A stretch of 64,000 nt of DNA, taken from Rhodococcus sp. CH91. Lineage in GTDB: Bacteria > Actinomycetota > Actinomycetes > Mycobacteriales > Mycobacteriaceae. Shown here piece by piece: positions 25,726 to 41,499 of the stretch (within the stretch, counting starts at the first letter, position 1; every line of letters begins with the position of its first letter). The notes under the pieces were generated by a model. The model was not told the DNA's origin, ran no database searches, and saw nothing but the letters and a program-made list of their open reading frames with translations. The position numbers and the translations under genes were made by a program. Where the stretch lies: assembly GCF_022554085.1 (NCBI RefSeq), contig NZ_JAKFYR010000012.1:288-64287 (forward strand), in the 5' to 3' direction.

Positions 25726-25801
25726 GCCCTCGTAGCTCAGGGGATAGAGCGCTTGCCTCCGGAGCAAGAAGTCGCAGGTTCGAATCCTGCCGAGGGCACC
25801 A
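25726..25801 (+). tRNA. tRNA-Arg (CCG)
   Basis: A 76-base gene with CCA encoded. The acceptor stem GCCCTCG pairs with CGAGGGC (25791-25797). The D-arm is AGCTCAGGGGATAGAGC, the anticodon stem CTTGC/GCAAG encloses loop CTCCGGA with anticodon CCG (reads CGG), and the T-arm is GCAGGTTCGAATCCTGC. It lies alone between DUF305 and a strong hairpin. M. tuberculosis, as I recall, also has a tRNA-Arg near argS. Confidence 0.97.
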
Positions 25802-25863: not shown

Positions 25864-26223
25864 TCAGTTGCCGGTGAACGGCGTCGGGTCGAAGTAGTCC
25901 CGGCAGGCCGCGATCTTTCCGTCGACGATCTCGAACACGCCCGTGACGGGGAGTTCGATCGTCCTACCGTTCATGGTGAACACATCGGTGCGTTCGTTGA
26001 GCACGACGCTGCCCGAGACTGCCTGGTGGTGGATGCGATAGTCGATGGCCCCGAACGACGTCACGAAGCCCGCGATGTACTCCTCGATGGCCGCCCTGCC
26101 GCGGATCGGTTCCATCGGGATGTTGTGAAAGACCGCGTCCTCGGCGAAGAAGCCGGCGAGCTCGGCCGGATCGGGATCGGCCCAGCGCCGGCAGAACTCG
26201 GTGACGACCTCGTCGGGGCTCAT
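25864..26223 (-). CDS. Limonene-1,2-epoxide hydrolase-like protein
   Basis: A 119-residue NTF2/SnoaL-fold protein. The sequence follows the limonene epoxide hydrolase family: FHNIPMEPIRGR, then NERTDVF with the Arg-x-Asp pair, and CRDYFD with the second Asp, matching the Asp-Arg-Asp catalytic triad. The M. tuberculosis relative is EphG. Substrate unknown. The start overlaps the stop of the metallo-hydrolase gene by 4 bases, so both are made together. Confidence 0.85.
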   Translation of the reverse strand: MSPDEVVTEFCRRWADPDPAELAGFFAEDAVFHNIPMEPIRGRAAIEEYIAGFVTSFGAIDYRIHHQAVSGSVVLNERTDVFTMNGRTIELPVTGVFEIVDGKIAACRDYFDPTPFTGN

Positions 26224-27218
26224 CGGCTCTGCACGCGCGCGAAGCGGGCGGGTTCGGTTCCCGCCACTCGACGGACCCGTCCTCGTTCGATGAGCTGCCG
26301 CACGTGCGCCGACCCCTCGGCGAGCGCCATTCTCTTACCGTGCAAGGGGGTCTCGTCCCACGGCCGGTACCAGCGCATGCGGGCGGTGGCCTCCCACAGC
26401 GTGAGTTCCTCGTCGCCGAATGCGTCGTAGAGATCGTCGAGGCGCTGGTCGTGGTGGTCGATCAGTTCGCCGACGCGGTGCGGCAGGTCGTCGATCTGCT
26501 GCCGGTGTGCGGGCAGTGCGCGCCGCACGGGCAGATCGGCGACCACGCGTAGCGACTCGAGATACTCCCCCAGCGCGTCGCGTTGCGGCAGCGGGAAATC
26601 GAACTCGCCGACGTGCGGGGTCGTGGTCGCGAGGACGTGGTCGCCGCTGAACAGCACGCCGTGTTCCTCGAGCAGGAAGCACGCGTGACCGGCCGTGTGG
26701 CCGGGGGTCAGCACGGTGCGCAGGGAGCGGCCCGCCAGCGGGATCGTCTCGTCGGCACCGAGTTTGCGGTCGGGCAGCGAGTCGGGACGGCCCACCGCCG
26801 GCACGGCGGTGGCGAGCGATTCCTCGATCGCATCCTCGGGTGCGCCGGCACGGCGCAACAGTTCGGCTTCCTGGGGACGGCGATCGACGTCGGAGAGCAT
26901 GACCTCGAGGTGCGCGAAATCGGCCTCGTTCATGGCCACCCAGCATCCGGAGGCCTCGCGGATGCGTCCGGTGAGGCCGACATGGTCGGGATGGAAATGG
27001 GTGACGACGACGCCCTCGACGTCGGTCACCGACAGGCCCGCCGTCGCCAGTCCGTCCTGCAGGGCCGCCCACGACCTGTCGTCGTTCCAGCCGACGTCCA
27101 CGAGGACGACACCGCGTGGGGATTCCATCACGTAGACCTGGGTATCACCGACGGGCAGGTCTGCCACCGGGACGGGGACGACATGGATGCCGTCTCCGAT
27201 ATCACACGCTCGGGCCAT
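26220..27218 (-). CDS. MBL-fold metallo-hydrolase
   Basis: A 332-residue metallo-beta-lactamase-fold hydrolase. The metal motif HFHPDHVG is near residue 74-81; GHTAGHACF and FSGDHVLATT give the further His and Asp ligands. The C-terminal part after residue 235 (DLPHRVGELIDHHDQRL) is the helical tail seen in a subgroup of RNase Z/glyoxalase II-like enzymes. Substrate unknown. A GAGAGG ribosome site precedes ATG. It forms a two-gene operon with the epoxide hydrolase-like gene. Confidence 0.9.
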   Translation of the reverse strand: MARACDIGDGIHVVPVPVADLPVGDTQVYVMESPRGVVLVDVGWNDDRSWAALQDGLATAGLSVTDVEGVVVTHFHPDHVGLTGRIREASGCWVAMNEADFAHLEVMLSDVDRRPQEAELLRRAGAPEDAIEESLATAVPAVGRPDSLPDRKLGADETIPLAGRSLRTVLTPGHTAGHACFLLEEHGVLFSGDHVLATTTPHVGEFDFPLPQRDALGEYLESLRVVADLPVRRALPAHRQQIDDLPHRVGELIDHHDQRLDDLYDAFGDEELTLWEATARMRWYRPWDETPLHGKRMALAEGSAHVRQLIERGRVRRVAGTEPARFARVQSR

Positions 27219-27271: not shown

Positions 27272-28417
27272 TCAACTATTCTGCGGATGGGGCTCGATGA
27301 CTGCGACGATGGACCGGATCTCCCCCGCCGGGATGTCGAAATGCTCGGTCACCGCGACCGACATCTCCGATGCCGGCTTCCCTCCACCCGGAACCGTCGC
27401 GATGTCCAGCACGAAGCGCGCGACCACGCTGTGATGCCATTCGTGGAACTGCAGGTCGCGGATCCTGCGGATCGGCCGGTATTCCGGGCCGTGCTCGAGC
27501 CGGTCACGGATCTCGACGCCACTGTCTCCGGTGCGCTCCCCGTTCTCGACCCGCCAGGCATCGGCGGCGAGCCGCACATGGGACGCGTCGTGGCTCACCA
27601 GGGAACGGATGTAGGCGCGCGCCATCGCCACCCGAGGACTGTCACCCGGACCGACCGCATGGCGGGCCAGTGCCGCCATCACCTCCGGAGCCCATTCCGC
27701 ACGGCAGATCACCAGGTCGGGAAGATATGGATGCGGCCGGTTGTATTCCAGTTCGCTGCCGTCGATCCGGCTGCAGTGCAGGCCGGCGGCCCGGGCCACC
27801 GCGACCGGCGCCGCCGAATCCCACTCCCACTGTCCGCCGGCGTGGATATAAGCGTCGGCCTCACCCCGGACCACCGCCATCGCCTTGGCGCCGGCCGAGC
27901 CCATCCGGATCAGGTCGGCACCGAGCTCGCCTGCGAGATCGAACACGAATGACGGCGGCCTGCTCCCGCTGATGACGATGCGCGGACGACGCCGCGAGAC
28001 CGGAGGCGGAGGCGGTACGTCGCCGGTACTGTGCACCACGCCGATCGCGGGCTGGGCCACCGCACCCGCGGTCAGGCCCTTGCCCGCCTCCCACAGTGCG
28101 ACGTGGACCGCCCAGTCGACGTGCGAGGGCATCCCGTACTCCTTCGATCCGTCCAGCGGATCGATGATCCAGACCCGGTCGGCCTCGACCCGCGACGGAT
28201 CGTCGGCGGACTCCTCCGAGAGCACCGCGTCCCCGGGTCGTGCCGCGGCCAGGCGTTCGAGGATGTAGGTATCGGCGGCGCGGTCACCGCGCCGGCCCAG
28301 CTCGCGGCCGGTGAGGGCATCTCCCTCGATGGCACGGACGGTCAGTAACAGTTCCCCTGCGGCGGAGGCTGTCTCGGCGGCGAGTCGGGCATCGTCGAGC
28401 TGGGAGTCGTCGGTCAT
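27272..28417 (-). CDS. cysQ: CysQ 3'(2'),5'-bisphosphate nucleotidase with extra C-terminal domain
   Basis: The N-terminal part (about 1-255) is a magnesium-dependent phosphatase that converts PAP to AMP, clearing the by-product of PAPS use. Metal ligands are visible: LSEES with Glu68/Glu69, DPLDGSKE with Asp86 and Asp89, and WEWDSAAP with Asp200. CysQ normally ends after PDLVICRAE and a short helix (about 260 residues). Here the frame continues for another 120 residues (AMARAYIRSLVSHDASH to IEPHPQNS), which resembles a SnoaL/NTF2-like small domain by its helix-then-strand pattern; that label is inference. The 381-residue protein is one uninterrupted frame. Its ATG overlaps the cysNC stop by 4 bases. 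Confidence 0.9.
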   Translation of the reverse strand: MTDDSQLDDARLAAETASAAGELLLTVRAIEGDALTGRELGRRGDRAADTYILERLAAARPGDAVLSEESADDPSRVEADRVWIIDPLDGSKEYGMPSHVDWAVHVALWEAGKGLTAGAVAQPAIGVVHSTGDVPPPPPVSRRRPRIVISGSRPPSFVFDLAGELGADLIRMGSAGAKAMAVVRGEADAYIHAGGQWEWDSAAPVAVARAAGLHCSRIDGSELEYNRPHPYLPDLVICRAEWAPEVMAALARHAVGPGDSPRVAMARAYIRSLVSHDASHVRLAADAWRVENGERTGDSGVEIRDRLEHGPEYRPIRRIRDLQFHEWHHSVVARFVLDIATVPGGGKPASEMSVAVTEHFDIPAGEIRSIVAVIEPHPQNS

Positions 28418-30252
28418 GCGGTCAACAATTGCACGATCAGCGCGGCCTTCGCCGCAGGAGTGCCGTCTCGTGGACGAAGCACCATCTCGGGCTCGCGTGG
28501 CGGCTCGTACGGATCGTCGACGCCGGTGAAGCGGGTGATCTCGCCGGCGCGGGCCCGTGCGTACATGCCCTTGGGGTCGCGCGCCTCGCACTCCGCGAGC
28601 GGCGTGTCGACGAACACCTCGTAGAACGGTATGCCCGCCTCCTCGTGATGCCGGCGCACGCGGTCGCGGTCCTCCCGGTACGGGCTGATCAATGCGCAGA
28701 TCGCGACCAGACCGGCGTCGGCCATCAGCTGGGCCACCGCACCGACACGCCGGACGTTCTCGGCGCGATCCTCCGGGCCGAAACCTAGATCGGCGTTGAG
28801 CCCGTGCCGCAGGTTGTCGCCGTCGAGGCGGTAAGCGGGAATTCCCTCGGCGATCAGTTTCCGCTCGAGCTCGACAGCGACGGTGGATTTGCCGGAGGCC
28901 GACAAGCCGGTGAGCCAGACCGTCGCGCCCGCCCTCCCCCGCTCGGTACGTGCGACCTCGGCCGAGTGCCACACCACCGGAACATCCGCCAGCGTCGGTC
29001 CGAGGATCGTTCCCGCGGCGACGGTGTTGCCCGTGTGCTCGTCCACGAGGACGAAACCGCCGGTGGTGCGATTACGGCGATACGGGTCGAACAGCAGTGG
29101 CTTGTGCGTGCGGATCCGTACACGACCGATCTCGTTGAGGCGCAGCGAGCCGGCGGTCTCGTCGCGGTGCAGGGAATCGATGTCGAGCCGATAGTCGACG
29201 CGCGCCACCCGGGCGGTGACGGCCTGAGTCGTGTGCAGCAGGACGTACCGAGCATCCTCGTCGAGGGAGGAGCGCTCGTCGAACCAGCACACCATGGCGT
29301 CGATCTCCCGGCCGACGAGCGGACGGTTATTGGGGCGGCACACCATGTCGCCGCGACCGACGTCGAGGTCGTGCCCGAGTTCGACGCATACCGCCGCACC
29401 GGCGAAGGCGTGGTCGAGTGTGACCCCGCCGGGTCCGCGGAGCGCCCGCACGTGCGTCGCGAACCCCGAAGGCAGAACGACCACCTCGTCGCCCGGCGCG
29501 AATCCTCCCCCGGCGATCGTGCCGGCGACCCCACGGAAGTCACGGTGCGGTCCGTCGCCGCCCGGCCGGATCACGTACTGCACGGGAAGACGGGCGTCGA
29601 TCAGATTGGCGTCGGACGCGACGTGCACCTGTTCGAGATGATGCAGGAGCGAGGTCCCCTCGTACCACGGCATGTTCGCGGTCCGGGAGACGACGTTGTC
29701 GCCGTGCAGAGCGGAGACCGGGACGAAGGCGAGGTCGGGGATGTCGAGTTTCGCCGCGAACGCGCGGAATTCGTCGCACAGCTCGTCGAATCGTTGCTGC
29801 GACCAGTCCACGAGGTCCATCTTGTTGATACAGAGCACCACGTGTCGGACACCGAGGAGGGACGCCAGGAAGGCGTGCCTGCGGGTCTGTTCGACGATCC
29901 CCTTGCGGGCGTCGACGAGGACGAGTGCGAGGTCCGCGGTCGACGCGCCCGTGACCATGTTCCGCGTGTACTGCTCGTGGCCGGGGGTGTCGGCGATGAC
30001 GAAGGTCCGATGAGCGGTGGCGAAATAGCGGTAGGCGACGTCGATCGTGATGCCCTGCTCACGTTCGGCACGAAGACCGTCGGTGAGCAGCGCCAGGTCG
30101 GCCCGGTCGGCGCCGCGGGCGCGACTGACGCGGTCCACGGCCTCGAACTGGTCCTCGAAGACCGCCTTGGAATCGAACAGCAGGCGGCCGATGAGGGTGG
30201 ACTTGCCGTCGTCCACGCTTCCCGCGGTGGAGATGCGCAGCAGACTCGACAT
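28414..30252 (-). CDS. cysNC: Bifunctional sulfate adenylyltransferase large subunit / APS kinase CysNC
   Basis: It makes APS with CysD, driven by GTP, then phosphorylates APS to PAPS. It has 612 residues, as in M. tuberculosis CysNC. The CysN GTPase half has GSVDDGKSTLIGRL near 11-24, DTPGHEQY and NKMDLVDW. The APS kinase half begins near 435 with the P-loop GLSASGKST and LDGDNLRHGLN. The open frame continues upstream across cysD, but homology starts at MSSLLRISTAG. Stop and start with cysD overlap by one base (TGATG). Confidence 0.97.
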   Translation of the reverse strand: MSSLLRISTAGSVDDGKSTLIGRLLFDSKAVFEDQFEAVDRVSRARGADRADLALLTDGLRAEREQGITIDVAYRYFATAHRTFVIADTPGHEQYTRNMVTGASTADLALVLVDARKGIVEQTRRHAFLASLLGVRHVVLCINKMDLVDWSQQRFDELCDEFRAFAAKLDIPDLAFVPVSALHGDNVVSRTANMPWYEGTSLLHHLEQVHVASDANLIDARLPVQYVIRPGGDGPHRDFRGVAGTIAGGGFAPGDEVVVLPSGFATHVRALRGPGGVTLDHAFAGAAVCVELGHDLDVGRGDMVCRPNNRPLVGREIDAMVCWFDERSSLDEDARYVLLHTTQAVTARVARVDYRLDIDSLHRDETAGSLRLNEIGRVRIRTHKPLLFDPYRRNRTTGGFVLVDEHTGNTVAAGTILGPTLADVPVVWHSAEVARTERGRAGATVWLTGLSASGKSTVAVELERKLIAEGIPAYRLDGDNLRHGLNADLGFGPEDRAENVRRVGAVAQLMADAGLVAICALISPYREDRDRVRRHHEEAGIPFYEVFVDTPLAECEARDPKGMYARARAGEITRFTGVDDPYEPPREPEMVLRPRDGTPAAKAALIVQLLTA

Positions 30253-31184
30253 CAGAAGTATCCCTCCCGCTTGCGGTCTTCCATCCCGGCGTCCGAGATG
30301 CGGTCGTCCGCCCGGGTCGCCCCGCGTTCGGTGACCCGGCTCGCGGCGACCTCGGCGACGACCTCGGCTGCGGTGGCCGCAGCCGATTCGACACAGCCCG
30401 TACACGTGGCGTCGCCGACGGTGCGGAACCGCACGAGCACCTCGCGGGGCGTCTCGTCCGGCAGCAGGGTGAGAAAGCGGTTGTGCGCGAGCATCATTCC
30501 GTCGCGTTCGATCACGGGGCGCCGGTGAGCGTAGTACAGGGAGGGCAGATCGACGTGCTCGTCGCGGATGTATCGCCAGATGTCGAGTTCGGTCCAGTTG
30601 GAGAGAGGGAACACCCGGACGTGCTCGCCCTTGCGGTGGCGGCCGTTGTACAGGCGCCACAATTCCGGACGCTGCGCTTTCGGGTCCCACTGCCCGAATT
30701 CGTCGCGCAGGCTGAAGATGCGTTCCTTGGCCCGGGCCTTCTCCTCGTCCCGGCGGGCACCCCCGAAGACCGCATCGAAGCCGCCTTCGGTCACCGCCCG
30801 CAACAGGGTGCCGGTCTGCAGACGATTGCGGGTGGCCCGAGGCCCGTGATCCTCGACCGCGCGTCCGGCATCGAGATCGTCCTGGACCGACGCCGTGAGC
30901 AACCGCACGCCCCGTTCCGCCACCGTGCGGTCGCGGAACTCGATCACTTCGTCGAAGTTGTGCCCGGTATCGATGTGCAGCACCGGAAACGGCAGCGGAG
31001 CCGGCCAGAACGCCTTCGCCGCCAGGTGGAGCATGACAGCGGAGTCCTTGCCTCCGGAGAAGAGCAGCACCGGGCGGGCGAAGGTGGCGGCGACCTCCCG
31101 GAAGATGTGGACGGACTCCGCCTCGAGCGCGTCGAGCAGCGAGAGTTCGTAGGTGGGTGGTCGTCGTGAAGACACCGCAGTCAC
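30252..31184 (-). CDS. cysD: Sulfate adenylyltransferase small subunit CysD
   Basis: ATP sulfurylase catalytic subunit, forming APS from sulfate and ATP with CysN. It has 310 residues from GTG 31184 (MTAVSSRRPPTYELS). The PP-loop is LLFSGGKDSAVMLH (about 40-54), followed by HIDTGHNFDEVIEFRD and GGARRDEEKARAKER. The C-terminal GDATCTGC region is typical. It is the first gene of cysD-cysNC-cysQ. Its promoter lies over the 3' end of the iclR gene and contains the palindrome described at 31252-31265. Confidence 0.97.
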   Translation of the reverse strand: MTAVSSRRPPTYELSLLDALEAESVHIFREVAATFARPVLLFSGGKDSAVMLHLAAKAFWPAPLPFPVLHIDTGHNFDEVIEFRDRTVAERGVRLLTASVQDDLDAGRAVEDHGPRATRNRLQTGTLLRAVTEGGFDAVFGGARRDEEKARAKERIFSLRDEFGQWDPKAQRPELWRLYNGRHRKGEHVRVFPLSNWTELDIWRYIRDEHVDLPSLYYAHRRPVIERDGMMLAHNRFLTLLPDETPREVLVRFRTVGDATCTGCVESAAATAAEVVAEVAASRVTERGATRADDRISDAGMEDRKREGYF

Positions 31185-31247
31185 ATGCCCTTTCCGGGCG
31201 AGCGCCGTTCCGAATGTGTACCGGCGCGGTCGACGTTCGATGCGTTC

Positions 31248-31277
31248 ACGATAGAACGAGTTTCAATTCTCGGTCAA
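31248..31277 (-). promoter_or_regulatory. Probable cysD promoter
   Basis: On the minus strand TTGACC (plus 31272-31277), an 18-base spacer and TATCGT (plus 31248-31253) form a promoter overlapping the end of iclR. The predicted start is near 31241, giving a leader of about 57 bases. The same two boxes, with a 17-base spacer, occur at the divergent DUF1214 operon promoter. Confidence 0.55.
31252..31265 (-). promoter_or_regulatory. TnnAACnnGTTnnA operator in the cysD promoter
   Basis: Read on the minus strand, TGAAACTCGTTCTA fits TnnAACnnGTTnnA, the 14-bp pattern described for the mycobacterial lipid/cholesterol repressor KstR. It lies in the spacer and over the -10 box of the cysD promoter and covers the iclR stop codon. 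It is nearly the same as the site at 32209-32222. Whether KstR or the neighbouring IclR protein binds it cannot be told from sequence. Confidence 0.55.
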
Positions 31278-32198
31278 CGACCGGCCCTCCGGCTGCCGGC
31301 GGCGGACCGGCCGGCGACCCCCGAGTTCGGTGGTGATCGCATCCGCTGCCGCCACGAGCGCCTGCCCGTAGCGCTCGAGTGCGGCGGCATCGAGCTCGCG
31401 TTCGACGTGCATCGCGAGCACGAGCGACTGGTGCCCGTCCGCATCGAAGGCGGGCGCCGCCACGAGATTGACCGCATGCGACGCCCCCGAGGCGAAGGCA
31501 TCGGGGAGAAGCACGCGCTCACCGGGACTCGACACGAGCTCCGCGAGCATCTCCCGCATCTCGGGCGCCAGGTCGTGCGAGATCACCCCGGCCATGAGGG
31601 CATAGAGACGCCGGCCGCCCCGGGTCAGGGATTCGGCCAGATAACCGGTGCGACGACATTCGGCCACCACGCGGCGCAGGTGTTCGCGGTCGACGTCCAC
31701 CGGCAGCGTGGGTTCACGACGCAGCCACTCCTCCATCCGTTCGTCGGTGTCCCACAGCACGTACATCAACCCGACGGGCGGAGCGAACGGATAGACCTCC
31801 CCCACGCGGGCGGCGGCCGCGGCACCGCGCGCGTGGCCCTCACCGGCGACCTCGAGCACCACGATGCGATCCCCGACCACCGCCGAGGCCGTGCACAGCA
31901 CGTGGAACTGCGCCGCGAGCGGTCCGAGATGCCGGTGCGCGACCGCTCCCGACGAGAATCCCTGCTGCGCCGCGCGCCCCGCGACGACCAGGGCGGGCCC
32001 GAGCCCGTACGTCTTGCCGACCGGGTCGCGAACGAGATATCCGGCCTCGGTCAGCACGGTGAGGATTCCCAAGCAGGTGGGCTTGCTCAGGCCGAGTTCC
32101 CGCGCCAGCTCGGACAAGCCGTAGCGGCATCCGGGACGGGCGACGAAGTGATCGAGGATCTCCACCACGCGTTCGGTGGGGGGCGAGCGGCGGACCAT
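31263..32198 (-). CDS. IclR-family transcriptional regulator
   Basis: A 311-residue regulator from ATG 32198 (MVRRSPPTERVVEILDHF) with GGAGG 5 bases upstream. The N-terminal winged helix-turn-helix (about 8-68, YGLSELARELGLSKPTCLGILTVL) is followed by an effector-binding domain (about 80-270) of the IclR type. Effector unknown. It sits between cysD and the divergent DUF1214-SDR-sulfotransferase operon, and its ends are bracketed by two almost identical palindromes, so control of both flanking operons is plausible. A TAAAGT box on the minus strand may be part of its own promoter. Confidence 0.93.
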   Translation of the reverse strand: MVRRSPPTERVVEILDHFVARPGCRYGLSELARELGLSKPTCLGILTVLTEAGYLVRDPVGKTYGLGPALVVAGRAAQQGFSSGAVAHRHLGPLAAQFHVLCTASAVVGDRIVVLEVAGEGHARGAAAAARVGEVYPFAPPVGLMYVLWDTDERMEEWLRREPTLPVDVDREHLRRVVAECRRTGYLAESLTRGGRRLYALMAGVISHDLAPEMREMLAELVSSPGERVLLPDAFASGASHAVNLVAAPAFDADGHQSLVLAMHVERELDAAALERYGQALVAAADAITTELGGRRPVRRRQPEGRSLTEN

Positions 32199-32226
32199 TG
32201 ACCCTCCCTGTAACACGTTCTATCGT
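32198..32226 (+). promoter_or_regulatory. Probable promoter of the DUF1214-SDR-sulfotransferase operon
   Basis: TTGACC (32198-32203), a 17-base spacer and TATCGT (32221-32226) form a promoter with a predicted start near 32233, about 48 bases before GTG 32281. The -35 box overlaps the iclR start region. Both boxes equal those of the cysD promoter. Confidence 0.6.
32209..32222 (+). promoter_or_regulatory. TnnAACnnGTTnnA operator of the sulfotransferase operon
   Basis: TGTAACACGTTCTA fits the KstR-type pattern TnnAACnnGTTnnA and lies in the promoter spacer, reaching the -10 box. It shares 12 of 14 bases with the cysD site, and the downstream TCGT is also conserved. A protein bound here would block the promoter, so a repressor is likely. 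Confidence 0.6.
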
Positions 32227-32280
32227 CTGCCCCACGAGACTTTACCGCAGCGGTACACATATGGACCACAGGAGATCGCA

Positions 32281-33447
32281 GTGCTCACCGATCCACTCAC
32301 CGCGGCGATCGCCGAGGCCGAGAAACTCGTCGCCACCGCCCCCCATATCCGCACCGACCAGGACCTCACCGAGGGCTACGGCTACCTCGCGGGCGGGATC
32401 GCCGCATGCGTGCACGCCACCTGGGCCCACAGCAGCACGCATCCGGTCTTCATCACCGGCACCGGCCCTTATACCAAGATGGGTCTCGACAATCCGGACA
32501 CGCTGTACTGGGGAGCCGCGGTACGCGACGACGCGGAGTACGTCGTCACCGGCCGCCGCGGCACGACCTGCGACCTGAGCTTCCAGGTACTCGCGGGCAA
32601 CTACACCGATGCCGAGGTGCCGGGCAATGTCACGGCGTTCGACGACCGCGCCGTCCGCATCGACCCCGACGGCACCTTCGAGATCCGGTTCGGGCCCGGC
32701 CCCGCCGACCCCGAGCGCAACTACTTCACCCTCGCGCCCGGCTCGTCCCAACTCGTCGTGCGGGAGGTCTACAGCGACTGGTCACAACGACGCGGCACGC
32801 TGCGCATCGATCGACTGGACAGCCTCGGCGTCCCCGCACCCGAGCCGACCCGCGAAGACGTCGTGAAACGCTACGAACGCGCGGGGCGTGCACTCGTCAC
32901 GCGGGTCAAGACGTGGCTGCAGTTCCCCGAATGGTTCTATCTCCGCCTGCCGGTGAACACCGTCACCGAGCCACGCCGGACACCCGGTGGACTCGATACG
33001 CAGTATTCCTCGGTCGGGCACTTCGACCTCGGCGACGACGAGGCCATGATCCTGACCCTCCCCGCGAGCGACGCCCCCTATCTGGGATTCCAGATAGGCA
33101 GTCTCTGGTATATCTCCCTGGACTACGTCCACCACCAGACATCGCTGAACAACACGCAGGCACAGGTCGATCCGGACGGCATGGTCCGGATCGTCGTCTC
33201 GGCCCGCAATCCCGGACTGACCAACTGGGTGGAGACCCTCGGCCGCGGTCGCGGCATCCTGCAGTTCCGCTGGCAACGCCTCGACCGCGAACTCACCGCT
33301 GCCGACGGCCCGACCGCCGAGGTGGTCCCGTTCGATCGGCTCGCCGAGAGTCTGCCCTTCCACGAATCGAACCGCATCACTCCCGAGGCCTGGGCCGATC
33401 GCATCGCGGCACGCCAGCAGGCCGTCGCCGATCGGATGCTCGGATGA
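32281..33447 (+). CDS. DUF1214 domain protein
   Basis: A 388-residue protein from GTG 32281 with GGAG 6 bases upstream. It has no signal peptide. The C-terminal half (about 250-370: YLGFQIGSLWYISLDY, HHQTSLNNTQAQVDPDG, NPGLTNWVETLGRGRGILQFRW) is the DUF1214 domain; the N-terminal half has a beta-rich region. Function unknown. The order DUF1214 protein, SDR, sulfotransferase resembles what I recall as Rv3531c-Rv3530c-Rv3529c in the KstR-controlled cholesterol region of M. tuberculosis. It ends 4 bases into the SDR gene. Confidence 0.88.
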   Translation: MLTDPLTAAIAEAEKLVATAPHIRTDQDLTEGYGYLAGGIAACVHATWAHSSTHPVFITGTGPYTKMGLDNPDTLYWGAAVRDDAEYVVTGRRGTTCDLSFQVLAGNYTDAEVPGNVTAFDDRAVRIDPDGTFEIRFGPGPADPERNYFTLAPGSSQLVVREVYSDWSQRRGTLRIDRLDSLGVPAPEPTREDVVKRYERAGRALVTRVKTWLQFPEWFYLRLPVNTVTEPRRTPGGLDTQYSSVGHFDLGDDEAMILTLPASDAPYLGFQIGSLWYISLDYVHHQTSLNNTQAQVDPDGMVRIVVSARNPGLTNWVETLGRGRGILQFRWQRLDRELTAADGPTAEVVPFDRLAESLPFHESNRITPEAWADRIAARQQAVADRMLG

Positions 33448-34235
33448 ACCCCGGAGGCGGACTGCTCCACGACCGGGTCGCGGTGATCTCCGGTGTCGGT
33501 CCGGGCCTGGGCCGCACGCTCGCCCTGCGCTGTGCGATGCAGGGTGCCGACGTGGTACTCGCCGCCCGCACCCGGGACCGCCTCGAGAAGGTGGCCGCGG
33601 AAGTCGAGAGCACGGGCCGTCGGGCGCTGGCCGTCCCGACCGACATCACCGACGACGAGTCCGTGGCCGCACTCGTGGAGACCGCGACCGCGCAGTTCGG
33701 CCGCGTCGATCTCCTCGTCAACAACGCGTTCACCGTTCCGTCGATGAAACCGTTGGCACGCACCGAATTCCAGCAGGTCCGCGACAGTCTGGAACTGACG
33801 GTGCTGGGCGCTCTGCGGTTGACACAATCACTCACCCCCGCCCTCGCCGAATCCGGCGGATCGGTGGTCAACATCAACTCGATGGTGCTGCGGCATTCCC
33901 AGGAGCGTTACGGCAGTTACAAACTCGCCAAGTCGGCACTGCTGGCCATGTCCCGTTCCCTGGCGACGGAACTGGGACCTCAGGGAATTCGTGTCAACTC
34001 CGTTGCACCCGGATACATCTGGGGGCCGGTCCTGCAGGGGTACTTCGAGCACCAGGCCGGCAAGTACGGAATCACGGTCGAGCAGATCTACGAGCACACC
34101 GCTGCCGCCTCGGATCTGAAGCGTCTCCCGACCACCGAGGAGATCGCCGATGCGGTGATCTTCCTGGCCTCCCCGATGGCATCGGCGATCACCGGCCAAT
34201 GCCTCGATGTCAACTGCGGCGAATACCACCACTGA
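33444..34235 (+). CDS. Short-chain dehydrogenase/reductase
   Basis: A 263-residue classical SDR. The cofactor motif is SGVGPGLGR near 16-24 (in place of TGxxxGIG), NNAF is at about 92-95 (variant of NNAG), and the catalytic Ser and YxxxK are in NINSMVLRHSQERYGSYKLAK. The C-terminal ASAITGQCLDVNCGEYHH is typical. The NAD(P) preference is unclear. It starts 4 bases before the DUF1214 stop and precedes the sulfotransferase by 11 bases. A hydroxysteroid or alcohol substrate is a guess from context. Confidence 0.92.
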   Translation: MNPGGGLLHDRVAVISGVGPGLGRTLALRCAMQGADVVLAARTRDRLEKVAAEVESTGRRALAVPTDITDDESVAALVETATAQFGRVDLLVNNAFTVPSMKPLARTEFQQVRDSLELTVLGALRLTQSLTPALAESGGSVVNINSMVLRHSQERYGSYKLAKSALLAMSRSLATELGPQGIRVNSVAPGYIWGPVLQGYFEHQAGKYGITVEQIYEHTAAASDLKRLPTTEEIADAVIFLASPMASAITGQCLDVNCGEYHH

Positions 34236-34246
34236 ACGGGACTCCC

Positions 34247-35395
34247 ATGAGCGAACGCACCACCGTCGGCACCGTCGAGGACCTCCACGCCTCGGCGACC
34301 CGGTCGACCGGCCTGGACGATTTCGGCGACGACGACTACCGCGACGGCCTCGAAGTACTGCTCGAGTCCTACGCCCGCGACGAGTCCCTCACTCCTCTGG
34401 GCAGCAAGATGTCGCGCGTTTTCCTTCGAGGGGCCCTCATCGCGCGGTTGCTGTCCGAGGCCGCGTGGAGGAAACACCCCGAGCATGCCGACGTCCCGAT
34501 CACCCGGCCGATCTTCGTCACCGGACTCCCCCGCACCGGCACCACCGCGCTGCATCGCCTCCTGGCCGCCGACCCCGCGCACCAGGGCCTGGAGATGTGG
34601 CTCACCGAGATGCCGCAACCCCGGCCCCCGCGCTCGGCATGGGCCGCCGATCCCGTCTTCTCCGCCATCGAAGCCGGTTTCGCCCGGCATCACGTGGAAC
34701 ACCCCGAGTTCATGGGGGTGCACTACATGTCGGCCGCAGAGGTCGAGGAGTGCTGGCAATTGCTGCGCCAGTCGTTCCGGTCGGTGTCCTACGAGTGCCT
34801 GGCACACCTGCCGAGCTACTCCCGCTGGCTCGCCGACCAGGACTGGACCGGCGCCTACACCCGCCATCGCAGAAACCTGCAGCTCATCGGGCTTCCCGAT
34901 GCCGACAAGCGGTGGGTGCTGAAGAATCCCAGCCACCTGTTCGCCCTCGACGAGCTGCTGACCGTCTATCCCGACGCGCTGGTGGTGGTGACACACCGCG
35001 ATCCTCGCACGGTGATCCCGTCGGTGTGCAGCCTCGCGGCACACGCCACCGAAGGCTGGTCCGAGACCTTCGTCGGCGAGACCATCGGCCGCACTCAGCT
35101 CGATCTGTGGGCGCGTGGTTTCGAGCACTTCACGCAGGCACGCGCCCGGCACGATCCCGCGCAGTTCGTCGACGTCGACTACCGGGATTTCGTCGCCGAC
35201 CCGCTCGGCAGTGTCGGTGCCCTGTACGACCGGTTCGGCCTGCCGTTCACCGCGGACGCGGAACGCGCGATGACGGACCTGCACGAGGAAAGCCGGAGCG
35301 GGGCACGGAAACCCGCGCACCGCTACACGCTCGAGGAGTTCGGTCTGTCCGCGCGTGAGGTCGACGAGCGGTTCCCCGACCACGCGTACCGCTGA
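34247..35395 (+). CDS. PAPS-dependent sulfotransferase
   Basis: A 382-residue sulfotransferase from ATG 34247 (MSERTTVGTVEDLH). The 5'-phosphosulfate loop is PIFVTGLPRTGTTALHRLL near residue 85-103; the 3'-phosphate region is VTHRDPRTVIPSVCSL near 248-263. These bind PAPS, the product of CysNC encoded just across the iclR gene. It resembles the Rv3529c-type enzymes of mycobacteria. The acceptor is unknown; context suggests a lipid or steroid alcohol. It is the last gene of its operon. Confidence 0.92.
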   Translation: MSERTTVGTVEDLHASATRSTGLDDFGDDDYRDGLEVLLESYARDESLTPLGSKMSRVFLRGALIARLLSEAAWRKHPEHADVPITRPIFVTGLPRTGTTALHRLLAADPAHQGLEMWLTEMPQPRPPRSAWAADPVFSAIEAGFARHHVEHPEFMGVHYMSAAEVEECWQLLRQSFRSVSYECLAHLPSYSRWLADQDWTGAYTRHRRNLQLIGLPDADKRWVLKNPSHLFALDELLTVYPDALVVVTHRDPRTVIPSVCSLAAHATEGWSETFVGETIGRTQLDLWARGFEHFTQARARHDPAQFVDVDYRDFVADPLGSVGALYDRFGLPFTADAERAMTDLHEESRSGARKPAHRYTLEEFGLSAREVDERFPDHAYR

Positions 35396-36063: not shown

Positions 36064-36840
36064 TCAGGCGTGCTTGAACTCCGGCGCGCGCTTCTCGACG
36101 AAGGCGGCCATGCCTTCCTTCTGATCGGCGGTGGCGAACGTCGAATGGAACACGCGGCGCTCGAACTTCACGCCTTCGGCCAGCGTGGTCTCGAAGGAGC
36201 GGTTGACGGCTTCCTTCGCCATGATCGCGACCGGCAGTGACATCGACGCGATGGTCGCCGCCGTCTCGAGAGCCACATCGAACAATTCCGCGGCGGGAAC
36301 GATGCGCGAGACGAGTCCGGCGCGCTCGGCCTCCTCGGCGTCCATATTGCGTCCGGTCAGGCACATGTCCATGGCCTTGGCCTTGCCCACGGCGCGGGTG
36401 AGGCGCTGCGATCCACCGATACCCGGGATCACGCCGAGCTTGATCTCGGGCTGACCGAACTTGGCGGTGTCGGACGCGATGATGAAGTCGCACAGCATCG
36501 CCAGCTCGCAGCCGCCACCGAGCGCGTAACCCGACACCGCGGCGACGATCGGCTTGCGGACGGACGAGAGCCGATCCCACTGCGAGAACAGATCTTCCGC
36601 GTACGCCTCGGCGAAGGTCTTCGGCGCCATCTCCTTGATGTCGGCGCCGGCGGCGAACGCCTTCTCCGACCCGGTGAGCAGGATCGCACCGATCTCGCCG
36701 TCCGCGTCGAGTTCCTCGACGGCAGCGACGACCTCGCGCATCAACTGGCTGTTGAGCGCGTTGAGTGCCTTCGGCCGGTTGAGGGTGACGATGCCGACGC
36801 GGCCCTTGCGGTCGAGCAGGATGGTCTCGAAATCTGTCAC
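36064..36840 (-). CDS. Enoyl-CoA hydratase of the valine operon
   Basis: A 258-residue crotonase from GTG 36840 ([14 protein letters not shown]). Both catalytic Glu residues are present: [12 protein letters not shown] and [14 protein letters not shown]. The oxyanion-hole region AAGADIKEM is typical. In this operon it would hydrate methacrylyl-CoA to 3-hydroxyisobutyryl-CoA. It resembles EchA8-type short-chain hydratases, so broader use in fatty-acid oxidation is possible. Start overlaps the mmsB stop by 4 bases. Confidence 0.94.
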
Positions 36841-37745
36841 TTGCTGTCCTTCGCGGTCGAGCGGTCTCGGATGTCGGTGATGATGGCGGAGAAGTCGAGT
36901 CCTCCACCACCCTCGGTGTTGAAACGATGGTAGAGCTCGGCTGCGCGCAATCCGAGTTCGGCCTCGACACCGTTGGCCCGCACCGCGTTCGCGGCCAGTC
37001 CGAGATCCTTGTCCATGAGCGCGGCCGCGAAACCCGGCTGGTAGTCGTTGTTCGCGGGCGTGGTCGGGACCGGACCCGGCACCGGGCAGTTGCTCGTCAG
37101 CGCCCAGCACTGACCGGACGCGTTGGACGCGACGTCGAACAGCGCCTGGTTGTCGAGGCCGAGCTTCTCACCGAGCACGAACGCCTCGCTGATCGCGATC
37201 ATCGAGATGCCCAGGATCATGTTGTTGCAGATCTTCGCGGCCTGGCCGTTGCCCGATCCACCGCAGTGGACGATCTTGCGGCCCATCGCCTCGAGCAGCG
37301 GCTGCGCCGTCGCGAAATCCTCTTCGCTGCCGCCGACCATGAACGCGAGGGTGCCGGCGGACGCCCCGGCGACACCGCCCGAGACGGGCGCGTCGACGGC
37401 GCGGTGACCGGCCCGCTGCGCCTTCTCCGCTGCCGCGCGGGCATCGGCGACGTCGATGGTCGAACTGTCGACGAACAGCGTGTTCGACTCGGCCGCGGGC
37501 AGGATCTCGTCGTACAGGTCGAGGACGAGCTTGCCGTTCGGCAGCATGGTGATCACGACCTCGGCGCCACGCACCGCGTCGACCGCGGCCTCGGCGACGG
37601 TGATGCCGTTCTTCGTGGCCTCTTCCTGCGCAGCGGGAACCGGGTCGTAACCCGTGACGGTGTACCCGGCGCGGACCAGGTTCGCGGCCATCGGTCCGCC
37701 CATGTGTCCGAGGCCCAGGAAGGCGACGGCGGGAAGTGCACTCAT
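36837..37745 (-). CDS. mmsB: 3-hydroxyisobutyrate dehydrogenase
   Basis: It oxidises 3-hydroxyisobutyrate to methylmalonate semialdehyde with NAD. It has 302 residues from ATG 37745. The Rossmann motif is [15 protein letters not shown] near 9-23, the substrate motif [19 protein letters not shown] is present, and the catalytic Lys is in [15 protein letters not shown]. It overlaps its neighbours on both sides by 4 bases, so the five genes from mmsA on are tightly coupled. Confidence 0.96.
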
Positions 37746-38806
37746 CGGTCGTTCTCCTTGGGAGCGGCGAGCCCGAGTTCGAGATCGCCGAGCGGCTGGA
37801 AGTAGGCGTCGACGTCGGCCTCGGTGACGTCGGCGAGGGTGGCCGGCGACCACTGCGGGTTGCGGTCCTTGTCGACGACCTGCGCGCGGATCCCCTCGAC
37901 GAGGTCGTGCGACTTCAGTGAAGCGGTCGAGACCCGGAACTCTTCGTTCAGCACCTCTTCGAGGCTGCCGAGCTGCCGGGCGTGCCGCAACGACCGCAGG
38001 GTCACCTTCAGCGCGACAGGCGATTTCGCGAGCACCTGATCGGCGGTCTCGCGCGCCTCCGGCACGTCCGAGGACCGGAGTCGCTCCACGATCTCGTCGA
38101 CGGTATCGGCGGAGTACGCCGCGTCGATCCACTCGCGCTGGGCGAGGAGCGCCGATTCGGGTGCGGACTGCGAATATTCGGCGAGTGCGTCCTCGACCGA
38201 GCCGGATTCGAGTGCGCCGACGAACTTGTCGAGCGACTCGGACGGCAGGTAGTGGTCGGCGAAACCGAGGGCGATGGCGTCGCCGGCCTTCATCCGCCCG
38301 GTGGTCAGCGCGATGTGGGTACCGATCTCGCCGGGTGTGCGCGAGAGCAGGTAGGTGCCGCCGACATCGGGAACGAATCCGATTCCGGTCTCGGGCATGG
38401 CGATGCTCGAACGTTCGGTGACGATCCGGACGTTGCCGTGCGCCGAGATCCCGACGCCGCCGCCCATGACGATCCCGTCCATGATCGCGATGTACGGCTT
38501 CGGGTAGCGGCCGATGGCAGCGTTGAGGATGTACTCGTCACGCCAGAAGTCCTGTGATCCCGTGCCGCCGTCCTTGGCGTCGTGGTAGATCGAGACGATG
38601 TCGCCGCCGGCGCACAGGCCGCGTTCACCGGCGCCGCGTACCAGCACGGCACGCACCGAGTCGTCGTTCTCCCACGCGTTCAGGGCCTTCGACATCTCGA
38701 GGACCATGGCGTGATTGAGGGCGTTGATGGCCTTGGGCCGGTTGAGCGTGATACGGCCGATGCCGTCCTTCACGTCGATGAGGATCTCGGGTTCCTGCCC
38801 GGTCAT
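37742..38806 (-). CDS. 3-hydroxyisobutyryl-CoA hydrolase
   Basis: A 354-residue crotonase-fold hydrolase; its length and the C-terminal half (FRVSTASLKSHDLVEGIRAQVVDKDRNPQWSPA) are diagnostic of 3-hydroxyisobutyryl-CoA hydrolase and not of a hydratase. The N-terminal core has GLCAGGDIVSIY, GGGVGISAHG and PETGIGFVPDVGG. It releases free 3-hydroxyisobutyrate for MmsB. ATG 38806 overlaps the acyl-CoA dehydrogenase stop. Confidence 0.93.
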   Translation of the reverse strand: MTGQEPEILIDVKDGIGRITLNRPKAINALNHAMVLEMSKALNAWENDDSVRAVLVRGAGERGLCAGGDIVSIYHDAKDGGTGSQDFWRDEYILNAAIGRYPKPYIAIMDGIVMGGGVGISAHGNVRIVTERSSIAMPETGIGFVPDVGGTYLLSRTPGEIGTHIALTTGRMKAGDAIALGFADHYLPSESLDKFVGALESGSVEDALAEYSQSAPESALLAQREWIDAAYSADTVDEIVERLRSSDVPEARETADQVLAKSPVALKVTLRSLRHARQLGSLEEVLNEEFRVSTASLKSHDLVEGIRAQVVDKDRNPQWSPATLADVTEADVDAYFQPLGDLELGLAAPKENDR

Positions 38807-39957
38807 GCTGCTCCGTTCTGTGCTGCGGCCACCACGCTCCGCGCGACGACCATCCGCATGATCTCGTTGGTTCCTTCGAGGATCTGATGCACGCGCAGAT
38901 CGCGCACGATCTTCTCGATCCCGTACTCGGCAAGGTAACCGTAGCCACCGTGCAGTTGCAGTGCTTCGTTGGCGACCTCGAATCCCGTGTCGGTCGCGAA
39001 CCGCTTGGCCATCGCGCACAACTCGACGACGTCCTCGCTCCCTCGGTCGAGAGCGTCGGCGGCGCGCCACAGCAGGGTGCGGGCGGCTTCGAGTTCGATA
39101 CGCATGTCGGCCAGGCGGAACTGCAGTGCCTGCGAGTCGAGCAGACGTTCCCCGAAGGCCCTGCGCTCGGCGAGATAGGCGACCGTCCGGTCCAGAGCGG
39201 TCTGCGCTCCGCCGACGGAGCATGCGGCGATGTTGATCCGGCCACCGTTGAGTCCGTGCATGGCGATACGGAATCCACCGCCCTCGGTACCGAGCAGGTT
39301 ATCCGCGGGCACGCGGGCACCGTCGAGGATCACCTGCCGGGTGGGCTGCGCGTTCCAGCCCATCTTCTTCTCGTTGGCACCGAAGGACAGGCCCGGGGTG
39401 TCCTTCGGGACGATGAACGCCGAGATCCCGCGCGCACCGGTGTCCCCGGTGCGCGCCATTACCACGTACACGTCGGAGGTGCCGGCGCCGGAGATGAACT
39501 GCTTGACGCCGGTGAGCACGTAATCGTCACTGTCGCGAACGGCCTTGGTGCTCAAGGCCGCCGCATCGGAACCGGCGCCGGGCTCGGTGAGGCAGTAGCT
39601 GGCGAGGTGCTCCATCGTGCACAGGTCCGGGATCCACTGCCGGCGCTGCTCGTCGTTGCCGAAGCGGTCGATCATCCAGGTGACCATGTTGTGGATGGAG
39701 ATGTACGCCGCGACGGACGGGCAGCCCTTCGCCAGTTCTTCGAAGATCCGGACGGAATCGAGGCGTCGCAGCCCCGATCCGCCGACATCCTCGCGGACGT
39801 AGATTCCGCCCATACCCAGTTCGGCGGCCTTGCGCAGCACGTCCACCGGAAAATGCTTGTCCTGATCCCACTCGACCGCGTTCGGGGCCAGGTACTCGGT
39901 GGCGAAGTCCCGGGCGGTGTCGCGGATGGCCCGGTCGTCGTCGTCGAGGATGAACAC
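38803..39957 (-). CDS. Acyl-CoA dehydrogenase, probably isobutyryl-CoA
   Basis: A 384-residue FAD enzyme of the acyl-CoA dehydrogenase family. It shows YCLTEPGAGSDAA, the FAD-binding LQLHGGYGYLAEY and the catalytic Glu in HQILEGTNEIMRMVV near the C-terminus. The operon context (MmsA, HIBCH, MmsB) points to isobutyryl-CoA to methacrylyl-CoA as the reaction. The gene begins 9 bases after mmsA. Confidence 0.93.
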   Translation of the reverse strand: MFILDDDDRAIRDTARDFATEYLAPNAVEWDQDKHFPVDVLRKAAELGMGGIYVREDVGGSGLRRLDSVRIFEELAKGCPSVAAYISIHNMVTWMIDRFGNDEQRRQWIPDLCTMEHLASYCLTEPGAGSDAAALSTKAVRDSDDYVLTGVKQFISGAGTSDVYVVMARTGDTGARGISAFIVPKDTPGLSFGANEKKMGWNAQPTRQVILDGARVPADNLLGTEGGGFRIAMHGLNGGRINIAACSVGGAQTALDRTVAYLAERRAFGERLLDSQALQFRLADMRIELEAARTLLWRAADALDRGSEDVVELCAMAKRFATDTGFEVANEALQLHGGYGYLAEYGIEKIVRDLRVHQILEGTNEIMRMVVARSVVAAAQNGAA

Positions 39958-39966
39958 GGCGACCGC

Positions 39967-41499
39967 CTAGTTCATCGTCGGGATGACGAAGTGGTCGGTG
40001 TCGGCCACGTGGGCACCGGCGATGTCGCCTTCCTTGACACCGGAGGGCCAGCGCTGCGTGACCGTCTTCGTCTTGGTGTAGAAGCGGAAGGCGTCGGGGC
40101 CGTGCTGGTTGAGGTCGCCGAAGCCGGAGGCCTTCCATCCACCGAAGGTGTAGTAGGCGATCGGCACCGGGATCGGGACGTTGACGCCCACCATGCCGAC
40201 CTGGACACGGGCGACGAAGTCGCGTGCGGTGTCGCCGTCGCGGGTGAAGATCGCGACGCCGTTGCCGTACTCGTGCTCGGTGGGCAGGGCGAGGGCGTGC
40301 TCGTAATCGCGGGCACGCACGACCGTGAGCACCGGTCCGAAGATCTCTTCCTTGTAGATCGACATGTCGGTGGTGACCTTGTCGAACAGGGTGGCACCGG
40401 AGAAGAAGCCGTTCTCGTGCCCTTCGAGGACGAAGTCGCGGCCGTCGACGACCAGTTCGGCGCCTTCCTCGACGCCCTGGGCGATGTAACCGTGGACGCG
40501 TTCCCGTGCGGCAGCGGTCACGAGCGGACCGAAATCGGCCTTCTCGTCGAAACTGGTGCCGATGCGCAGGTCGGCGATGCGCTCGGTGAGCTTGGCGACG
40601 AGACGATCGGCGGTCTCCTCCCCGACCGGAACGGCGACCGACAGTGCCATGCAGCGCTCGCCGGCCGAACCGTATGCGGCGCCGACGAGGGCGTCGGCCA
40701 CCTGGTCGAGGTCGGCGTCGGGCATGATGATCGCGTGGTTCTTCGCGCCGCCGAAGCACTGCGCGCGCTTGCCGTTCCTGGCGGCCGTCTCGTAGATGTA
40801 CTGCGCGATCGGCGTCGAGCCGACGAAGCCGACGGCCTTGATGCGCTTGTCGTTCAGCAGGACGTCGACAGCTTCCTTGTCGCCGTTGACGACGTTGAAG
40901 ACACCCGCAGGCAGACCGGCCTCGAGAAACAGTTCGGCCAGCCGCAGCGGAACCGAGGGATCACGCTCGGAAGGCTTGAGCACGAAGGCATTGCCGGAGA
41001 CGAGCGCGGGAGCGGCCTTCCACAGCGGGATCATGGCCGGGAAATTGAACGGGGTGATGCCGGCGACGACACCGAGCGGCTGGCGCATCGAGTACACGTC
41101 GATGCCGGTACCGGCGGATTCGGTGTATTCACCCTTGAGCAGGTGCGGAGCACCGAGCGCGACCTCGACGACCTCGAGTCCGCGCTGGATGTCGCCCTTC
41201 GCGTCGGGGATGGTCTTGCCGTGCTCGCTCGACAGCAGGCGGGCGAGTTCGTCCATGTTGTCCTGGGCGAGTTGCAGGAATCGCATGAGCACGCGGGCCC
41301 GCTTCTGCGGGTTCCACGACGCCCATTCCTTCTGAGCCACTTCGGCATCGGCGATCGCGGCTTCGACTTCGCTCACGGCGGCGAGCGGCACGCGGGCCTG
41401 GACCTCGCCGGTGTTGGGGTCGAAGACGTCGGCGTAGCGGCCGGAGGTGCCGGCGACATGCTGTCCGCCGACGAAGTGGGTCAGTTCTCGAACGCTCAT
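39967..41499 (-). CDS. mmsA: Methylmalonate-semialdehyde dehydrogenase, CoA-acylating
   Basis: It converts methylmalonate semialdehyde with CoA and NAD to propionyl-CoA and CO2. It has 510 residues. The catalytic Cys is in GSAGERCMALSVAVPVG; GITPFNFPAMIPLWK and FVGSTPIAQYIYE form the NAD site, and FGGAKNHAIIMPDAD is family specific. It is the first gene of the valine operon, preceded by a candidate promoter and a leader with an 8-bp direct repeat. Confidence 0.97.
   Translation of the reverse strand: MSVRELTHFVGGQHVAGTSGRYADVFDPNTGEVQARVPLAAVSEVEAAIADAEVAQKEWASWNPQKRARVLMRFLQLAQDNMDELARLLSSEHGKTIPDAKGDIQRGLEVVEVALGAPHLLKGEYTESAGTGIDVYSMRQPLGVVAGITPFNFPAMIPLWKAAPALVSGNAFVLKPSERDPSVPLRLAELFLEAGLPAGVFNVVNGDKEAVDVLLNDKRIKAVGFVGSTPIAQYIYETAARNGKRAQCFGGAKNHAIIMPDADLDQVADALVGAAYGSAGERCMALSVAVPVGEETADRLVAKLTERIADLRIGTSFDEKADFGPLVTAAARERVHGYIAQGVEEGAELVVDGRDFVLEGHENGFFSGATLFDKVTTDMSIYKEEIFGPVLTVVRARDYEHALALPTEHEYGNGVAIFTRDGDTARDFVARVQVGMVGVNVPIPVPIAYYTFGGWKASGFGDLNQHGPDAFRFYTKTKTVTQRWPSGVKEGDIAGAHVADTDHFVIPTMN

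Follow-up and report, generated by a model that had tools for sequence, protein, structure and literature searches.

To Rv3531c, Rv3530c and Rv3529c, three genes in the cholesterol region of mycobacteria, the table of PMC6429209 assigns no role. A motif for the regulator KstR lies between Rv3531c and Rv3532 and was bound by KstR in an electrophoretic mobility shift assay, according to Table 3 of PMC1995591, which also gives 6-fold de-repression without KstR for MSMEG_5932, the counterpart there. Here we describe a seven-gene cluster of Rhodococcus sp. CH91, found in a stretch of 64,000 nucleotides (positions 288 to 64,287 of contig NZ_JAKFYR010000012.1; hereafter the window), in which a DUF1214-like gene, a short-chain dehydrogenase/reductase (SDR) gene and a sulfotransferase gene lie next to an iclR gene and to divergent genes for the synthesis and recycling of 3'-phosphoadenosine 5'-phosphosulfate (PAPS). 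Rv3529c is a sulfotransferase and Rv3530c an SDR. The cluster is probably a module for PAPS-dependent sulfation that is part of steroid catabolism and of the KstR regulon. This reading is carried by the gene identities, by a PAPS supply separate from assimilation, by the conservation of the KstR boxes, by co-inheritance and by linkage to sterol genes.

The KstR box is TnnAACnnGTTnnA, as the motif is printed in PMC1995591. It occurs exactly twice in the 64,000 bases of the window, where 0.09 matches are expected from shuffles, and two or more matches were obtained in 1 of 100 shuffles. One box, TAGAACGAGTTTCA (31252-31265, no strand assigned), is an exact match located 67 bp upstream of the cysD start and overlapping the end of iclR; the other, TGTAACACGTTCTA (32209-32222, likewise), is an exact match between iclR and the DUF1214-like gene. 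Both recur in related loci, which were collected by scanning named genomes with the sulfotransferase as the sole query and keeping the best 80 of 182 relatives. Of the promoters in these loci, 70/79 for the DUF1214-like gene and 47/68 for cysD carry a box. The 80 loci contain 133 boxes in 1.60 Mb, most of them at these promoters, and eight rearranged control palindromes, which match this DNA 1 to 12 times, each hit 0/79 and 0/68 of the promoters. At the two promoters, the bases of the box carry 1.70 and 1.62 bits of information each, versus 0.61 and 0.50 for the 30 bases that flank it. In the Nocardia loci, of the two promoters' boxes only the one before the DUF1214-like gene is present; cysD, which follows closely behind iclR there, may share that boxed promoter.

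The genome also encodes KstR (NF033703, 332.7 bits against a cut-off of 280), and its gene adjoins a box. Neighboring genes were inspected for 17 of the 36 genomic box sites, spread over 13 stretches. Boxes adjoin genes for KstD (NF005882, 995.2/788 bits, score over cut-off here and below), HsaA (NF045629, 714.1/450 bits) and a steroid 3-ketoacyl-CoA thiolase (NF005889, 722.3/515 bits). Other boxed neighbors are, judged by position, probably KshA, KshB, Cyp125 and FadE34, for which NCBIfam gave no match over cut-off. The promoter boxes, the KstR gene and the other boxed sterol genes together place the cluster in the predicted KstR regulon, and KstR would be expected to bind the two boxes in this species. 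The initial annotation had centered the layout on IclR; iclR does hold that position, and KstR is the more informative regulator, having boxes on both sides of iclR. Regulation centered on IclR was set aside, since the KstR boxes account for both divergent units. A second KstR-like TetR protein is encoded on contig C35 (L112:7323-8009, 193.5 bits against the cut-off of 280), with a KstR-type box upstream.

Gene order around the sulfotransferase is conserved among the 80 loci. DUF1214-like and SDR genes precede it in 78/80, and iclR is in its place in 63/80. A comparison of gene order was what the initial annotation had called for, and the co-conservation of cys and sulfotransferase genes holds: divergent cysD and cysNC stand beside the sulfotransferase in 67/80 loci, six genes keep the same order in 57/80, and all seven, including cysQ, do so in 40/80. 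In four of the 13 loci missing cysD-cysNC, the sequence extends less than 6 kb upstream. Those bearing cysD-cysNC include loci of Rhodococcus, Prescottella, Nocardia, Saccharopolyspora and Amycolatopsis. The cluster neighborhood is old. Chance adjacency was ruled out by synteny together with the recurring KstR boxes.

Linkage to sterol genes was examined in 20 chosen loci of the family's other genera; three of these loci (L151, L154, L160) are second copies. Six of the 20 (L146, L148, L149, L152, L153, L157) have KshA, a box, HsaA and its next gene and then, on the HsaA strand, the DUF1214-like and sulfotransferase genes, with an SDR found in five of the six. In two more (L162, L163), the DUF1214-like, SDR and sulfotransferase genes are beside KshA. 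CysD and CysNC are inside the stretch in 11/20 loci, three of them in the hsaA group, and four loci (L147, L154, L158, L165) have neither sterol-gene linkage nor CysD/CysNC in the stretch. In L146 (genus g4), a CysQ-like gene (42%) adjoins the sulfotransferase in the kshA-hsa locus, with no cysD/cysNC within the stretch.

Co-inheritance was measured in 161 genomes of the family that are at least 90% complete, with presence called at E up to 1e-30 for the sulfotransferase and up to 1e-80 for the KshA-like protein. The sulfotransferase is present in 125 genomes, a KshA-like gene in 130, adenosine 5'-phosphosulfate (APS) kinase in 134 and a Cyp125-like P450 in 128. Every sulfotransferase-bearing genome has both a KshA-like gene (125/125) and an APS kinase (125/125), and one of them has no Cyp125-like match; APS kinase is absent from 27/36 genomes without the sulfotransferase. 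Fisher's test on co-occurrence gives 3e-28 and 3e-23, values that are not honest probabilities because the genomes are related; counted by genus, the sulfotransferase is in 20/30 and KshA in 21/30. For distances, one genome (G008) with only a much weaker sulfotransferase match was left out, which leaves 124. Within 20 kb of the sulfotransferase, APS kinase is found in at least 90/124, KshA in at least 35 and both in at least 21, and these are lower bounds, as places are listed for KshA in 109/130 genomes and for APS kinase in 129/134. Among 296 genomes drawn evenly from the phylum, 19 match the sulfotransferase with an E value of 1e-60 or lower, and 11 of these belong to this family.

The sulfate-activation genes are on the minus strand, where cysD (30252-31184), cysNC (28414-30252) and a cysQ-like gene (27272-28417) have overlapping stop and start codons, as in a single operon, with the iclR-family regulator (31263-32216, minus strand, ATG start probably at 32198; PF09339, 38.6/22 bits) upstream. 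CysD, the small subunit of sulfate adenylyltransferase (TIGR02039, 462.9/396.6 bits), and CysNC, the large subunit with a fused APS kinase and P-loops (NF004035, 915/715 bits), would form a complex of which both subunits and the APS kinase domain (TIGR00455) score above curated cut-offs. The CysQ-like protein, a putative 3'(2'),5'-bisphosphate nucleotidase, carries the motifs LSEES, DPLDG and WEWDSAAP. It scores above the cut-off of PF00459, which places it in the inositol phosphatase superfamily (101.4/27 bits), and below that of the CysQ equivalog (91.1/228.8 bits), so it is from context that it appears to be the phosphatase for 3'-phosphoadenosine 5'-phosphate (PAP). Its C-terminal stretch of about 130 amino acids (window ~27272-27680, minus strand) is without a Pfam match, and near full-length matches to the protein occur in many Rhodococcus loci.

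The three other genes are on the plus strand. The first (32281-33447) scores 22.9 bits against the 25-bit gathering score of PF06742 and is hence labeled DUF1214-like only; a profile of its alignment matches the solved chain 6ans_A (E 1.8e-40). The SDR gene (33444-34235; NF005909, 420.7/258 bits; YxxxK) starts 4 bp inside the end of the DUF1214-like gene. The sulfotransferase, of the PAPS-dependent type (34247-35395; PF13469, 219.4/27 bits), has 2zq5_A as its nearest solved chain (E 3.3e-164), presumably the M. tuberculosis enzyme. Its residues R96, G98, T99, T100, H103, R251 and S259 are invariant in 26 aligned rows, and it carries VTGLPRTGTTALHRLL and THRDPRTVIPSVCSLA, presumably the 5'- and 3'-phosphosulfate binding motifs. 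It is 87-88% identical to the sulfotransferases of Rhodococcus sp. 105337, R. gordoniae and R. coprophilus.

PAPS supply and sulfate assimilation are separate in this genome. A genome search with PF01507 found three places, the window cysD, plus cysH and then another cysD on contig C3. On that contig, stretch L087 has genes for a sulfite/nitrite-type reductase, for CysH and CysD, and for a 444-residue CysN lacking an APS kinase match, and next come ABC transporter genes, judged by eye to be of the sulfate type. The CysH encoded there scores above the cut-off of the APS reductase model TIGR02055 (242.1/235.3 bits) and below that of the PAPS reductase model (157.5/254.2 bits), and it carries CCRLRKVVPL, SIGCAPCT and KTECGLH, which are near the APS reductase signatures given in PMC8557817. 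Since this assimilation operon uses an APS reductase, PAPS is not expected to be needed for cysteine. The window cluster is not an assimilatory sulfate reduction operon, the cysH and sulfite reductase genes being on contig C3. By PF01583 the only place of an APS kinase in the genome is the window cysNC, and by PF13469 and PF00685 the only sulfotransferase is that of the window (PF17784 and PF03567 were not searched genome-wide); PF09037, for the Stf0 type, has no match in the genome, but none in control genomes either, so this search carries no information. The initial annotation had put sulfate activation, PAP recycling and a sulfotransferase within 8 kb around iclR and read them as dedicated sulfation rather than only cysteine synthesis. 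That layout stands, and the reading gains from the C3 operon and from co-conservation; its labels for CysD, CysNC and the sulfotransferase are over cut-offs, whereas those for DUF1214 and CysQ, below cut-offs, are weaker.

The window CysD is 65% identical to its assimilatory paralog on contig C3 and 76-83% identical to the sulfotransferase-linked CysD of Nocardia and Saccharopolyspora loci (76-78% for Saccharopolyspora). In a CysD tree, inner support is weak, the CysD rows of a second module (described below) are apart from the others, and the C3 CysD, on a long branch, groups weakly (93/70) with one row from a cluster, L164, and falls among the sterol-linked rows. On this basis a separate lineage of sterol-linked CysD can be neither affirmed nor dismissed, and the tree was not used as evidence.

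Several genomes, from this genus and from related ones, have a further sulfotransferase of 52-57% identity. Its surroundings were examined in 11 loci (L151, L166-L175). In 11/11, CysQ, CysD, CysNC, SDR and sulfotransferase occur in order. With the genes of L166 as queries, all 11 also have SnoaL-like and DUF1214-like genes, as well as a divergent TetR-like gene (so judged by eye), the full order being CysQ-CysD-CysNC-SnoaL-SDR-sulfotransferase-DUF1214-like. No KstR box stands in front of this second module in the 11 loci. Because PAPS synthesis and recycling, SDR, sulfotransferase and DUF1214-like protein recur as a block, the parts seem to serve one reaction sequence.

How the module might work can be outlined from the gene identities, from which the enzymatic activities of all cluster products are predicted. 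When sterol breakdown begins, KstR would leave its two boxes and both divergent units would be transcribed, with IclR possibly acting as a local second regulator. CysD and CysNC would convert sulfate and ATP to PAPS, the SDR would adjust a carbonyl or hydroxyl of a steroid-derived intermediate, the sulfotransferase would transfer the sulfuryl group from PAPS onto it, and CysQ would clear the by-product PAP. The DUF1214-like protein may process or bind the sulfated product. Since the genes lie beside kshA or behind hsa genes in other loci, the acceptor is most likely a ring A/B-stage steroid. The sulfate on it may serve as a tag, a detoxification product or a leaving group. The DUF1214-like protein may act downstream of the sulfotransferase, as is hinted by Rv3531c being among the genes required on cholesterol, where Rv3529c is not listed.

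A more specific version of this scheme, which we regard as rather unlikely, makes sulfation a leaving-group step, in which the SDR would reduce a ring ketone, the sulfotransferase would esterify the alcohol and the DUF1214-like protein would eliminate sulfate to give an alkene. Elimination driven by a sulfotransferase, with sulfate as the leaving group, is known from the sulfotransferase-thioesterase (ST-TE) of CurM and from retinol dehydratase, whose partner domains are unrelated to those of the window. The version would fit the requirement for Rv3531c and not Rv3529c, because a toxic sulfate ester would pile up without the Rv3531c protein. If true, the DUF1214-like family would be a sulfate-ester lyase and the removal of oxygen would be paid for by the KstR-controlled PAPS supply.

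Other explanations of the sulfation start from the same observations. The linkage behind hsaA in 6/20 inspected loci could also be explained by overflow or detoxification, in which leaked intermediates, for instance phenolic or catecholic seco-steroids such as 3-HSA and DHSA, are sulfated for holding or export and not as a productive step; phenols are among the classical acceptors of sulfotransferases, and neither Rv3529c nor Rv3530c is listed as required on cholesterol. This account has a modest chance of being right, since it leaves unexplained both the company of SDR and DUF1214-like genes that the sulfotransferase keeps in 78/80 loci and the listing of Rv3531c as required, and no exporter gene was recognized in the cluster, where no dedicated search was made. 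Alternatively, KstR may turn on the synthesis of a sulfated product (an envelope lipid, a quinone or a signal) of use to cells that take their carbon from sterols, as could be suggested by the boxless second module with the same gene kinds in 11/11 paralog loci and by the known mycobacterial PAPS sulfotransferases, which act on trehalose (Stf0) and menaquinone (Stf3). The close linkage to kshA and hsa genes, a presence pattern nearly identical to that of the KshA-like gene, and the fact that no lipid or polyketide synthesis gene was recognized in the cluster make such a non-steroid acceptor improbable. CysD and CysN are widespread assimilation enzymes, and the cys genes of the window might be ordinary assimilation genes lying by chance beside an unrelated operon. 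The chance of this is negligible, given that another operon with an APS reductase serves assimilation, that the neighborhood is kept in 57 to 67 of 80 loci and that KstR boxes are on both divergent units; the sulfite/nitrite reductase-cysH-cysD-cysN operon on contig C3 was taken to rule it out.

Several observations weigh against sulfation as a part of KstR-controlled steroid catabolism, which we nevertheless prefer. An exact box is missing at 9/79 DUF1214-like and 21/68 cysD promoters. The genome has 36 box sites versus 9 for the reversed pattern, so perhaps a quarter of the 36 are due to chance, and several boxed neighbors (e.g., in L108, L110, L113, L114 and L115) are not recognized sterol genes. 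The KshA-like gene occurs in five genomes that lack the sulfotransferase, and in 20/124, eight of them in one genus, neither APS kinase nor a KshA-like gene is listed within 20 kb. The second module has the same gene kinds without a box, so such sulfation need not be linked to sterols or KstR. To our knowledge, known cholesterol catabolism requires no sulfotransferase. Among Rv3531c, Rv3530c and Rv3529c, only Rv3531c is listed as predicted to be required on cholesterol (PMC6429209); this requirement rests on the table and notes of that paper, since the main text of PMC3182942 names none of the three. Finally, PMC9782250, on Saccharopolyspora hirsuta grown on cholesterol, contains no sulfotransferase, IclR, DUF1214 or adenylyl terms, the only sulf- word in it being the name of an organism, and reports that kstR and mce4 were not raised at 24 h.

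The cluster is flanked on both sides by other genes. Immediately to the left is a tRNA-Arg (ccg) gene (window 25726-25801, plus strand). After cysQ and on the same strand, window 25864-27218 (minus) holds genes for a SnoaL/limonene-epoxide-hydrolase-like protein and a metallo-beta-lactamase (MBL)-fold hydrolase, the latter keeping its place after cysQ in 9/80 related loci, all of them Rhodococcus. On the other side, window 36064-41499 (minus strand) contains enoyl-CoA hydratase, acyl-CoA dehydrogenase and aldehyde dehydrogenase genes and, by eye, a 3-hydroxyisobutyrate-dehydrogenase-like gene. This set resembles valine catabolism and has no KstR box.

Sulfation is a step absent from the textbook cholesterol pathway, and the predicted regulation through KstR boxes is a new point beyond the sulfation idea of the initial annotation. 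Having its own PAPS supply under KstR boxes, the arrangement in Rhodococcus and Nocardia suggests that the job of the three mycobacterial genes is PAPS-dependent sulfation tied to sterol use. A sulfation branch would be added to a pathway that is studied for steroid drug production and for tuberculosis. No literature linking KstR with a sulfotransferase or a PAPS supply was found in searches made mostly by title and abstract opening, and a 2007 Rhodococcus cholesterol study may already list the genes as induced; none was found on DUF1214 together with a sulfotransferase.

Among known systems, the mycobacterial operon is closest. The MSMEG_5932 primers, as printed in PMC1995591, encode TSLNGT and KGYLQF. 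In L163 the DUF1214-like gene agrees with them at 19/20 and 17/20 bases, at sites 131 bp apart, and in L162 and L024 at 15 and 15 bases with the same spacing; the DUF1214-like gene of the window has no paired DNA match to them, and its protein has TSLNNT and RGILQF. The MSMEG_5932 measurement thus concerns a counterpart of the window DUF1214-like gene. The DUF1214-like, SDR and sulfotransferase order of the Rv3531c-Rv3530c-Rv3529c/MSMEG_5932 operon is the same in L162 and L163, both of genus g28, where the genes lie beside kshA (L162, L163) and kstD (L162). Unlike the window, these two loci have no cysD, cysNC or cysQ found alongside, and by listed places APS kinase is within 20 kb in 0/10 genomes of genus g28, so PAPS there must come from elsewhere. 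The window itself resembles an Rv3531c-type operon in arrangement, with the same gene order and a KstR box in front. The resemblance to Rv3531c-Rv3529c, and with it the link to the mycobacterial cholesterol region, had been proposed from gene order. The resemblance is now backed by the same order in kshA-linked L162 and L163 and by the primer match to L163, and the sterol link by the two conserved KstR boxes and by the occurrence of these three genes within or next to kshA/hsa loci elsewhere.

Two further systems share the pairing of sulfate activation with a sulfotransferase. In rhizobia, nodPQ-nodH provides extra sulfate-activation genes for one dedicated sulfotransferase, as in the window, with a lipo-chitin signal as the acceptor, another regulator and no SDR or DUF1214. 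The CysN2C-CysD2-Stf0 cluster of Rhodococcus qingshengii IGTS8 differs in that its sulfotransferase is called Stf0, is numbered beside a sulfatase gene and was found on dibenzothiophene, and the passages on it in PMC8557817 mention no iclR, DUF1214, SDR or sterol link. CysN2C-CysD2 is likewise a second activation complex with a fused APS kinase, next to a sulfotransferase and distinct from the assimilatory CysN1D1 (PMC8557817).

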